In this document: piece by piece, positions 16,890-22,546 of the stretch
How positions within the stretch are numbered: position 1 is the first letter of the stretch
Layout: each line of letters opens with the position of its first letter
The notes under the pieces: generated by a model
Databases searched by the model: none
What the model saw: only the letters and a program-made list of their open reading frames with translations
Told to the model about the DNA's origin: nothing
Made by a program: the position numbers and the translations under genes
Assembly: GCA_009694165.1 (NCBI GenBank)
Contig: SHVP01000002.1
Coordinates: forward strand, 1 to 58,132
Source: Alphaproteobacteria bacterium
GTDB taxonomy: Bacteria > Pseudomonadota > Alphaproteobacteria > SHVP01
Length of the DNA: 58,132 bases
Reading direction: 5' to 3'

Positions 16890-18125
16890 CTATTCGTAGC
16901 GCAGCGCTAGGATGGGATCGAGCTGGGCCGCCTTGCGGGCTGGGTAGAAGCCGAAGAACACGCCCACCGCGGCCGAAAAACCGACGGCGATCACCAGCGA
17001 CAATGGCTCGACCAGGGTCGGCCAATTGGCCAGCCGGGCGATCGCGGCGGCGGCGCCAACCCCCAGCACGATGCCGATCAGTCCGCCGATGACCGAGAGC
17101 GTGATCGCCTCGACCAGGAATTGCATCAGGATGTCGCGGCGGCGTGCGCCCACCGCCATACGCAGGCCGATCTCGCGGGTCCGCTCGGTCACCGAGACCA
17201 GCATGATGTTCATGATGCCGATGCCGCCGACGATCAGCGAAATCGACGCCACCGCGGCCAACAGGATCGACAGGATGCGCTGCGCGGCTTCGCGCGTTTC
17301 CATGAGCTCGGACAGGTTGCGCACGTTGAAGTCGTCCTCGGCGCCCGGCTGAATGTTGTGGCGCTGACGCAACAGCGCGACGATCTGCTCTTCGGCCTGT
17401 TTCATCGGCGCGCCCTCGCGCACCTTGATCATGATTTGCTGCACCGCATCGGGGCGGGTGCGCGAGCTTTGGCCGACGATGCGCTGCTTGGCGGTGGTCA
17501 GCGGAACGACGACGACGTCGTCCTGGTCCTGGCCGAATGAATTCTGTCCCTTGCGGGCCATGACGCCGATGACCGTGAAGGGCACGTTTTTGATCCGCAC
17601 CGTCTCGCCCACCGGGTCGACGTCGACGAACACGTTCTTGACGACCGTCTCGCCGAGCAAGGCGATCTTGGCGCCCGAGCGCGCCTCCTCCTCGCTAAAG
17701 GTGCGGCCGCTTTGCACGTCCCATTCGCGCGCCGGGAAGAAGCTGGGGGTGACGCCCACGACCCCGGTCGACCAGTTCAGGTTGCCGGCCACGACCTGCG
17801 CGACGCCGCGCACGAAGGGAGCGGTGAAGGCGACCTCGCCGATCTGGTTCTGCAAGGCGTTGGCATCGTCGACCGTCAGGCTGGCGACGGTCCCCGCGCC
17901 CAGGCGAACGCCGCCCTGGCGGCTCGACGCGTTGAAGATGATGATCAGGTTCGATCCCAGGCTTTGGATCTGCTTGGCGACGCGCTCCTGGGCGCCGGAG
18001 CCGACCGCGACCATGGTGATCACGGCGGCGACGCCGATGATGATGCCGAGCATGGTGAGCCCGCTGCGCAGCGCATTGACGCGCAGGGCGCGGAGCGCGA
18101 CGGGAAAATTGGCGACGACGTTCAT
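16890..18125 (-). CDS. macB: MacB-type ABC exporter, permease subunit
   Basis: A 411-residue permease with the MacB/FtsX topology. One transmembrane helix near residues 20-42 (SGLTMLGIIIGVAAVITMVAVG.GA) is followed by a large periplasmic domain (residues ~45-280). Three C-terminal helices include SLIVGGIGIMNIMLVSVTERTREIGLRMAVGA, the cytoplasmic coupling signature of MacB. It works with MacA and an outer-membrane channel to export substrates by mechanotransmission. The ATPase, fused in E. coli MacB, is a separate upstream gene here with an ATGA overlap. It is the last gene of the sigma-factor operon. Confidence 0.92.
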   Translation of the reverse strand: MNVVANFPVALRALRVNALRSGLTMLGIIIGVAAVITMVAVGSGAQERVAKQIQSLGSNLIIIFNASSRQGGVRLGAGTVASLTVDDANALQNQIGEVAFTAPFVRGVAQVVAGNLNWSTGVVGVTPSFFPAREWDVQSGRTFSEEEARSGAKIALLGETVVKNVFVDVDPVGETVRIKNVPFTVIGVMARKGQNSFGQDQDDVVVVPLTTAKQRIVGQSSRTRPDAVQQIMIKVREGAPMKQAEEQIVALLRQRHNIQPGAEDDFNVRNLSELMETREAAQRILSILLAAVASISLIVGGIGIMNIMLVSVTERTREIGLRMAVGARRRDILMQFLVEAITLSVIGGLIGIVLGVGAAAAIARLANWPTLVEPLSLVIAVGFSAAVGVFFGFYPARKAAQLDPILALRYE

Positions 18126-18868
18126 GCCGCCGCCTGATCGAGGCTGCGCAGCTGGTCGGCCGCCACCTGGCGGTTGGCGACGGCGGCGTCGCTGCGTACT
18201 TCGCCGTCCTTGAACGTGATTACACGCCCGGCGAAGCGGGCAATGTCGGGTTCGTGAGTGACGAGGACGACCGTCATCCCCTTGGTATTCAGTTCCTGCA
18301 GAATGGCCATGATCTCGACGCCCGTCCGCGAGTCGAGGGCGCCGGTCGGTTCGTCGGCGAGCACCAACAGGGGGTCGTTGACCAGGGCGCGCGCGATTGC
18401 GACGCGCTGCTGCTGTCCGCCCGACAGCTGACCGGGATGATGGTGGGCGCGATCGCCGAGCCCGATCTGCGCCAGTCGGGCCATGGCCCGGCCGAGGCGT
18501 TCGGCCGATGGCATTCCCGAATACAACAGCGGCATCGCGATGTTGTCGACCGCCGAGGTCCGCGCCAGCAGGTTGAAGTTCTGGAACACGAAACCGATCT
18601 TGCGGTTGCGGAGCTGTGCCAGCTCGTCGCTGTCTAGCGTCGCCACGTCGACGCCGTCGAACCAATACTCGCCCGCGCTCGGCCGGTCGAGGCAGCCCAG
18701 CAGATTCATGAAGGTCGACTTGCCCGAGCCTGACGGTCCCATGATAGCGACGAACTCACCGCGACCGATCTCGATCGTGGCGTGGCGCAGCGCCCGCACC
18801 ACGTTGTCGCCCATATGGTACTCGCGCGCCAGCGCGCGGGTGCGAATGAGGGGCGACGCGGCGGTCAT
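18122..18868 (-). CDS. macB: MacB-type ABC exporter, ATPase subunit
   Basis: A 248-residue ABC ATPase of the LolD/MacB class. Walker A is GPSGSGKST (near residue 44), the Q-loop is FVFQNFNLL, the signature is LSGGQQQR, Walker B is LLVLADEPTGALD and the H-loop is VTHEPD. The Y-x-M-G-x-x-V-x-A-L-R start is typical of exporters pairing with MacB-like permeases. Its stop overlaps the permease start, and its start overlaps the macA stop (both ATGA), so stoichiometric translation of the three subunits is expected. Confidence 0.93.
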   Translation of the reverse strand: MTAASPLIRTRALAREYHMGDNVVRALRHATIEIGRGEFVAIMGPSGSGKSTFMNLLGCLDRPSAGEYWFDGVDVATLDSDELAQLRNRKIGFVFQNFNLLARTSAVDNIAMPLLYSGMPSAERLGRAMARLAQIGLGDRAHHHPGQLSGGQQQRVAIARALVNDPLLVLADEPTGALDSRTGVEIMAILQELNTKGMTVVLVTHEPDIARFAGRVITFKDGEVRSDAAVANRQVAADQLRSLDQAAA

Positions 18869-22092: not shown

Positions 22093-22108
22093 TGGCGCCT
22101 CCCGTTCA

Positions 22109-22546
22109 TTAGCGACGGCGGTCGCGGCCCGGAATCTCGCCTGCCTCGATCGCGTTGTCGCCGTCGGCATCATAGCGCTTGAACCAGCGCCGCGACGGCG
22201 TGGCGATTTCCTCGGCCGTCAACTGGCCGTCGCCGTTGGCGTCGTAAAGGTCGAACAAGCTGGTCACCGCCAGCATTTGGAACCAATAGCCGCGGCGGCG
22301 GAACTCGTCGACCGAGAGGAAGCCGTTGCCGTCGACGTCGGCCGCTGTCACCAGGCGGCGAATCTCGGCGACGATCTCATCGACGGTGATCTTTCCGTCC
22401 TTGTTGGTGTCGTAGTTTTCGATGACGCGGGCGCTGCGGTCCATGCCCGCCTCCCGCTCGGCGCCGCGCATGGGTTGCGCCTGCGCGGTGGCGCCAAGCA
22501 GGGCCGCCAGACCAACGACGCCGATCATCCAGCCAACTCGCTTCAT
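22109..22546 (-). CDS. Secreted protein with four EF-hands
   Basis: A 145-residue protein: signal peptide (residues 1-23, ending ATAQAQ) and four canonical EF-hand loops at about 46-57 (DTNKDGKITVDE), 70-81 (DVDGNGFLSVDE), 102-113 (DANGDGQLTAEE) and 126-137 (DADGDNAIEAGE). All four keep most calcium-ligand positions, so calcium binding in the periplasm is likely. The ATG at 22546 has TCAGGAGA at a good distance; the upstream ATG at 22552 is too close to it. It lies 16 bases upstream of the sigma gene and is the probable first gene of the operon. Confidence 0.88.
   Translation of the reverse strand: MKRVGWMIGVVGLAALLGATAQAQPMRGAEREAGMDRSARVIENYDTNKDGKITVDEIVAEIRRLVTAADVDGNGFLSVDEFRRRGYWFQMLAVTSLFDLYDANGDGQLTAEEIATPSRRWFKRYDADGDNAIEAGEIPGRDRRR

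Follow-up and report, generated by a model that had tools for sequence, protein, structure and literature searches.

The operon considered here occupies positions 16890-22546 on the minus strand of a 58,132-nucleotide stretch of the alphaproteobacterial contig SHVP01000002.1 (the window), and several described systems each resemble a part of it. In Caulobacter vibrioides, the periplasmic EF-hand protein CaBP is encoded directly before the extracytoplasmic function (ECF) sigma factor SigV, and both genes respond to Ca2+ limitation and acid, each affecting the expression of the other (PMC13171946). The start of cabp was mapped by 5′ RACE, with a promoter GGAAA-N13-CGTTCA, and its expression depends on SigV, direct binding not being shown in the accessible part of that report. 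The membrane component of the proposed model is a question mark, and neither an anti-sigma factor nor a sensor is named in the same accessible part (PMC13171946). An operon of Azospirillum encodes RpoE8, a hypothetical protein and a periplasmic heavy metal sensor, all three of which rise together upon overexpression of RpoE6 (PMC12826043); by annotation only, this is the make-up of the sigma, membrane protein and sensor trio of the window, and the available part of the report names no exporter. The ECF26 operons of Sinorhizobium are autoregulated and pair a sigma factor with a downstream anti-sigma factor of the COG5662 type, with a GGAA-type -35 element (consensus GGAATA/GT), as far as the portions of the reports at hand extend (PMC3511301, PMC6180224), whereas the corresponding membrane protein of the window has no assigned domain and the -35 element is an extended GACGGA.

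The CnrYXH system of Cupriavidus metallidurans, to which the sequence-only reading of the window likened the block, also places an ECF sigma factor and a small membrane anti-sigma factor (CnrH and CnrY; PMC7406223) side by side with an anchored Spy-fold protein, in association with an efflux pump. The exporter of the window is of the MacAB type and not a resistance-nodulation-division (RND) pump. The gene orders differ as well, the sigma gene being last in CnrYXH and first in the window operon, where an EF-hand gene is added. CnrYXH is taken here as an analogy for this operon.

On balance, the seven-gene block appears to be an envelope-stress operon that is autoregulated and also supplies the exporter for its own response. 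Its core, composed of the sigma factor, the putative anti-sigma protein (ASF) and the Spy-fold sensor, is a widespread conserved module in alphaproteobacteria, and MacAB is an occasional cargo of this module. The pairing of an EF-hand protein with an ECF sigma factor (Caulobacter; PMC13171946) and the operon of sigma factor, hypothetical protein and heavy metal sensor (Azospirillum; PMC12826043) are already in print, and no report of the MacAB coupling, the shared promoter or the ASF family was found in the literature searched, which covered few subscription papers.

Organization of the seven-gene block

The identities and places given to the seven minus-strand genes in the sequence-only reading agree with the coordinates of the open reading frames (ORFs) and with Pfam and NCBIfam family matches. 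The EF-hand protein gene comes first (22109-22546; 145 aa; Pfam EF-hand, four matched stretches), and its product bears a hydrophobic stretch at residues 4-22 and four loops starting at residues 46, 70, 102 and 126, as located by hydropathy and a loop scan, the fourth presenting an Asn in the usual Gly position. Secretion of this protein is likely, as predicted from hydropathy. The ECF sigma gene follows (21481-22092; 203 aa; Pfam Sigma70_r2 and r4_2; NCBIfam PRK05602 at 215 bits, cut-off 208), and after it the genes of ASF (21053-21484; 143 aa), the membrane-anchored Spy-fold sensor (20568-21053; 161 aa; PF13801 at 59.8 bits, cut-off 29.2), the periplasmic adaptor MacA (18868-20568; 566 aa; Pfam HlyD above cut-off), the MacB ATPase half (18122-18868; 248 aa; Pfam ABC_tran above cut-off) and the MacB permease half (16890-18125; 411 aa; Pfam MacB_PCD at 179 bits and FtsX at 78 bits). 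The 16-base gap between the EF-hand and sigma genes is confirmed on the sequence. That all junctions from sigma onward are ATGA holds as far as overlap is concerned, which is present at all five, but not as to its form: the sigma/ASF and MacB ATPase/permease junctions are ATGA (4 bases), whereas the ASF/sensor, sensor/MacA and MacA/MacB junctions are TGATG, with a 1-base overlap.

ASF carries the motif AYGGDxxRWPEAER and is predicted to fold into four N-terminal helices, one membrane helix and a short tail, with a single hydrophobic stretch at residues 93-117 (hydropathy). Its start is likely the second ATG, at 21478, and counted from there the structural model (mean predicted local distance difference test score, pLDDT, 82.7) contains confident N-terminal helices at residues 2-17, 26-38 and 40-58, a further helix (90-110) that covers the hydrophobic stretch, and a tail of lower certainty. 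Of 75 members of the ASF family, 74 have no Pfam match at E 0.01 and one matches DUF3379 at E 0.0022, and the window ASF scores 16.1 bits against an NCBIfam 'anti-sigma factor' model, far below its cut-off of 100. The family profile returned four weak matches among all PDB chains, with neither CnrY nor a solved relative among them, in a search that easily misses short helical proteins; fold searches gave no usable match. The putative name of anti-sigma factor rests mainly on position and topology.

The sensor is anchored by a hydrophobic segment at residues 8-35 (hydropathy), and its Spy fold, proposed earlier, is borne out by the PF13801 match, which is shared by 60 of 60 aligned relatives. 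In a profile search of the PDB, the sensor family reaches Spy with an E-value of 1.3e-5 but the CnrX chain 3zg1 with one of only 0.13. Solved sigma factors other than CnrH score above CnrH for the window sigma factor. The likeness to CnrYXH survives as a conserved unit of sigma factor, one-helix protein and Spy-fold protein, with no conserved metal-ligand column, no homology to CnrY detected and no RND pump in the window operon.

Distribution of the module

An ASF protein search returned 7 relatives besides the window ASF, and a scan of a species-genome collection returned 153, of which the best 80 were kept and 79 gave usable loci (L048 was left out). A class sample of 385 alphaproteobacterial genomes, chosen without regard to gene context, contained an ASF match at E 0.001 in 135, the weakest being partial matches; the 103 best places by E-value were taken, of which 100 were counted, since L017, L018 and L057 were already in the other set. 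The two sets overlap further in that four loci are identical by upstream sequence. Neighbouring genes were called with local profiles, and the denominators below are the loci with enough flanking sequence.

The sigma gene lies directly before that of ASF in 99/100 class-sample loci and 79/79 of the other set, and the sensor gene is next after ASF in 87/95 and 72/74, respectively. An EF-hand gene is less regular (52/98 and 48/72). MacA is encoded directly downstream of the module in only 7/91 class-sample loci, and MacAB in 0/72 of the other set, so that the earlier description of the trio as 'hard-wired' to MacAB is not supported. Two further class-sample loci bear a divergent macA upstream of the module (L180 and, on a match of only 42 bits, L183). 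An RND pump follows the trio in 2/72 loci of the other set (AcrB family, >1000 bits): at L017 (8932-13328) and L018 (8957-13275) the trio runs into an adaptor and an AcrB-family pump, the nearest approach to a Cnr-like layout seen, and L018 has in addition an LTXXQ gene just upstream of sigma. Eight loci (L056, L057, L105, L118, L121, L159, L163 and L179) consist of EF-hand, sigma and ASF genes with no sensor or exporter found, and in these sensing may have passed to ASF.

A shared promoter and the link to CaBP-SigV

An ECF-type motif, GACGGA-N16-CGT, lies on the minus strand at 22583-22607, 36 bases 5′ of the EF-hand ATG, and a motif of the form GACGGA-N15-17-CGT is found upstream of the first module gene in 100/175 loci. 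This count stands at 98/171 for distinct sequences and at 93/163 with look-alikes collapsed, and the spacer is 15 bases in 85 of the 100 and 16 in the other 15. Controls gave 0/166 in regions about 1 kb further upstream, 1/175 on the reverse strand and, in shuffled sequences (n=30), a mean of 1.2 and a maximum of 3. Because the pattern was chosen after inspection of ten sequences, a small part of the excess reflects selection, but the controls are far lower. Within the 58 kb of the window this is the only match; 4.2 matches would be expected by chance, so it is the place and conservation of the motif that count and not its number. L119, a related locus discussed below, has the upstream motif and one further match inside the block, and L173, another, has the upstream motif and none inside. 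No sigma-70-like site was found within 16200-22750, internal promoters that would separate the exporter from the rest having been named earlier as a ground for doubt.

The published cabp promoter agrees with this family motif in its GGA, its CGT and its spacing (PMC13171946). The window element, GACGGA-N16-CGTGTT, has a spacing of 16 against 15 in cabp and reads GGAGA where cabp has GGAAA, and a cloning primer ending gcgacgga suggests that GAC precedes GGA in the cabp promoter as well. The window also shares with CaBP-SigV, in so far as that system is described in the accessible text, the arrangement of a predicted-secreted EF-hand gene directly before an ECF sigma gene.

A search of 390 Caulobacteraceae genomes for the strict motif GCGACGGAAA-N13-CGTTCA located it at 31 places, and the reversed control at none. 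Ten of these precede a sigma/ASF/sensor module, either complete or cut by the end of the stretch, three precede an LTXXQ/Spy-like gene (about 60 bits each; cut-off 24.3) and one a separate macA-macB-macB operon. Five lie before genes of large, secreted-looking proteins that resemble one another, the two of these that were scanned lacking a Pfam match; three lie before the gene of a methyltransferase-like protein, as judged by eye, with no Pfam match for the one scanned; and the remaining nine lie before other genes, including those of an M61 peptidase and a hydrolase. The large proteins (L214-L218, in five genomes) have 842-860 aa in four loci and 504 aa, as read, in L215, and the methyltransferase-like protein (L195-L197, L231; three genomes) is a secreted-looking product of 266 aa whose gene starts 27 bases behind the motif.

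At three loci (L210-L212), the sequence of the published sigV primer is found, with two mismatches, immediately after the EF-hand gene, and these are taken, on sequence grounds, as close cabp-sigV relatives, C. vibrioides itself not having been identified among the genomes searched. With longer flanks (L225-L227), the same three loci show ASF and then the sensor downstream, and no MacAB match within the stretches examined.

MacA, MacB and the Spy-like insert

MacA matches solved MacA at E 3.6e-28, and its model (pLDDT 84.5) features a long helical hairpin at residues 100-229. Behind a Gly/Pro-rich linker of low confidence sits a four-helix, Spy/LTXXQ-like insert (residues 414-501; 19066-19329, minus strand) with modelled helices at 414-425, 429-451, 456-477 and 480-501. 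The insert is not seen in a Pfam scan of whole MacA, but LTXXQ (PF07813) matches 8/8 aligned inserts at E up to 1, the best at 2e-7 and that of the window at 24.3 bits, exactly the cut-off, and a profile of the inserts finds Spy as its best PDB match (E 3.5e-7). Within this subfamily of MacA, inserts of the kind are frequent. Comparison of the insert and sensor family profiles gave a probability of 48.8% (E 1.8e-4), which makes kinship between the two plausible but does not show it.

For the ATPase, the NCBIfam MacB model is the best match at 278 bits, its cut-off of 966 being set for a one-chain protein, and the permease matches solved MacB at E 7.7e-69. The window thus shares with MacAB-TolC the MacA adaptor fold and the MacB core and permease domains, whereas, unlike in E. 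coli MacB, the ATPase and permease are two ORFs joined by the ATGA overlap. Split MacB variants are known. The Spy-like insert is a second departure from MacAB-TolC, and the lack of a TolC-type gene in the operon a third. A further FtsX/MacB_PCD permease, long at 874 aa, is encoded at 38769-41393 (minus strand), some 16 kb away from the operon.

Synteny and shared descent

The seven-gene order, the loss of which in relatives had been named as a ground for doubt, is exactly retained in L119 and L173, and in L162 from a cut sigma gene onward up to the contig end. Of all MacA matches in the 385 genomes, the best three (60, 59 and 58% identity) fall in these loci, which likewise have short junctions; the sigma factors of the window and L119 are 62% identical. 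The surroundings are retained along with the block. A divergent ChrR-type cupin gene (22694-23539, plus strand; PF12973) is kept in L119 (80% identity) and L173 (63%), each of which carries a second, more distant cupin copy behind the first. Convergent with the block, biotin carboxylase and PYC/OADA-type carboxyltransferase-biotin genes occupy 12745-16216 (plus strand); the PYC-type gene is kept beside the block in L119 (85%), L173 (78%) and L162 (77%), the last two of which retain the biotin carboxylase gene as well. Behind macB, a small Ser-rich gene without family (16464-16817, minus strand) has a homolog in L119 only (58%) and a short gene (16217-16441, minus strand) has none, among the seven loci compared. 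The block was inherited with its surroundings in this lineage, and its conservation there is therefore no proof of function by itself.

A sigma tree of 95 rows, drawn from 173 distinct sequences and built by a quick method with SH-aLRT support, groups the window with L119 (support 98), and places these two in a ten-row group (support 96) together with L173 and seven loci that lack a sensor. These seven are the loci without a sensor listed above, except L105, which is not in the tree. Seven MacAB-coupled rows include the window, and L162 is left out because its sigma gene is cut. The label of MacAB coupling requires three changes if only labelled rows are considered and five over the tree as a whole; well-supported branches force two, and MacAB has been joined on at least two, and probably four, sigma lineages. 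Two of these loci (L156 and L171) have no EF-hand gene and encode a TolC-type outer membrane efflux protein (PF02321) after MacB, and another two (L100 and L169) have a one-chain MacB together with a MacA that lacks both the long linker and the insert, so MacAB systems of different types are attached to the same trio.

Proposed mechanism and alternative explanations

In the reading that is preferred here, if with little more confidence than doubt, ASF would hold the ECF sigma factor at the inner membrane, and the anchored Spy-fold sensor would bind ASF in the periplasm and keep it inhibiting. A periplasmic stress signal, such as a misfolded protein, peptide or amphiphile, would occupy the Spy fold, whereupon ASF would release the sigma factor to transcribe from the element at 22583-22607. 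One transcript would then provide the EF-hand protein, sigma factor, ASF brake, sensor and MacAB, and the exporter, whose MacA has a Spy-like domain of its own, would clear the inducer and close the loop. The sequence itself establishes the gene content, the order that recurs, the common promoter motif and the Spy-like domains of sensor and MacA; the anti-sigma activity, the contact of the sensor with ASF, the release, the one transcript, the ligand, the cargo and the part played by the EF-hand protein are inferred.

Several observations weigh against this scheme. NCBIfam, Pfam, PDB profile and fold searches gave nothing convincing to tie ASF, by sequence or by fold, to a known anti-sigma factor. 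The strict promoter motif is absent in 75/175 loci (47 with sigma first, 28 with the EF-hand gene first), and for MacA genes not beside the trio it was found upstream of 1/25 usable cases, no more than chance allows. The sensor is missing from eight class-sample loci, of which five belong to the ten-row sigma group of the window. MacAB is not adjacent to most modules, and the MacA of the separate Caulobacteraceae macAB operon has no LTXXQ match at E 0.001. Finally, cabp and sigV are reported, in the part of the study available, as separate transcripts (PMC13171946).

The strongest rival, although itself unlikely, is a calcium or pH input through the EF-hand protein, which would act on ASF and leave the Spy-fold protein as an effector chaperone and not a sensor. 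Its standing derives from the EF-hand gene being kept in sensor-less close relatives, the seven loci of the ten-row group with EF-hand, sigma and ASF genes only, and it is favoured as well by the published response of cabp and sigV to Ca2+ limitation and acid (PMC13171946) and by the presence of ASF and sensor downstream in the three genomes with close cabp-sigV relatives. The EF-hand gene is nevertheless found in little more than half of the class-sample loci (52/98), whereas the sensor is in 87/95. A more elaborate form of the envelope-stress scheme, which must be called doubtful, draws on both inputs: in a closed loop of quality control, the Spy fold would serve two times, detecting periplasmic clients on the partner of ASF and collecting them for expulsion on MacA, the EF-hand protein would set a calcium threshold, and the ASF family (AYGxDxxRWPEAER) would represent an anti-sigma class that is both new and widespread, as well as the part that CaBP-SigV lacks.

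A CnrYXH-like metal operon, in which a transition metal would bind the sensor and MacAB or its cargo would relieve metal stress, is improbable. The trio is of the same kind, the Pfam name of the sensor family refers to heavy-metal resistance, and the related trios of L017 and L018 run into an RND pump. The metal site of CnrX is built from His, Glu and Met ligands, but among 60 sensors, in no column filled in at least 60% of rows is the share of His, Cys or Met above 35%, which indicates that a site of this type is not conserved, and the window sensor has two His and no Cys. The sensor profile moreover prefers Spy to CnrX, and most of the permease's solved relatives go by the name of macrolide exporter. 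On the evidence for a ligand, this metal-led reading is the weakest.

About as improbable is that MacAB is a hitchhiker with its own promoter and an unrelated export function, adjacent to the trio in this lineage. In favour of this view, MacAB is not downstream of 84/91 class-sample modules, no trio lies within the flank examined for 26 of the 30 best MacA relatives, and the accompanying cupin and carboxylase genes mean that shared descent explains part of the synteny. It is opposed by the start/stop overlaps that link all genes of the window operon from sigma to permease and the short junctions of L119, L173 and L162, by the joining of MacAB on other sigma lineages, by the lack of a sigma-70-like site in the interval searched and by the motif that also heads the separate Caulobacteraceae macAB operon.

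Implications

The finding of a MacAB that is tied to a sigma factor and has a Spy-like domain built into it suggests that the task of some MacAB pumps lies in periplasmic folding stress and not in drug export. The shared promoter makes the regulon predictable from sequence, and ASF, although matched in 135/385 sampled alphaproteobacterial genomes, has had no family model. For the membrane component missing from the Caulobacter CaBP-SigV model, ASF and the Spy-fold protein offer concrete candidates, and the module may supply the missing link in the Caulobacter calcium response.

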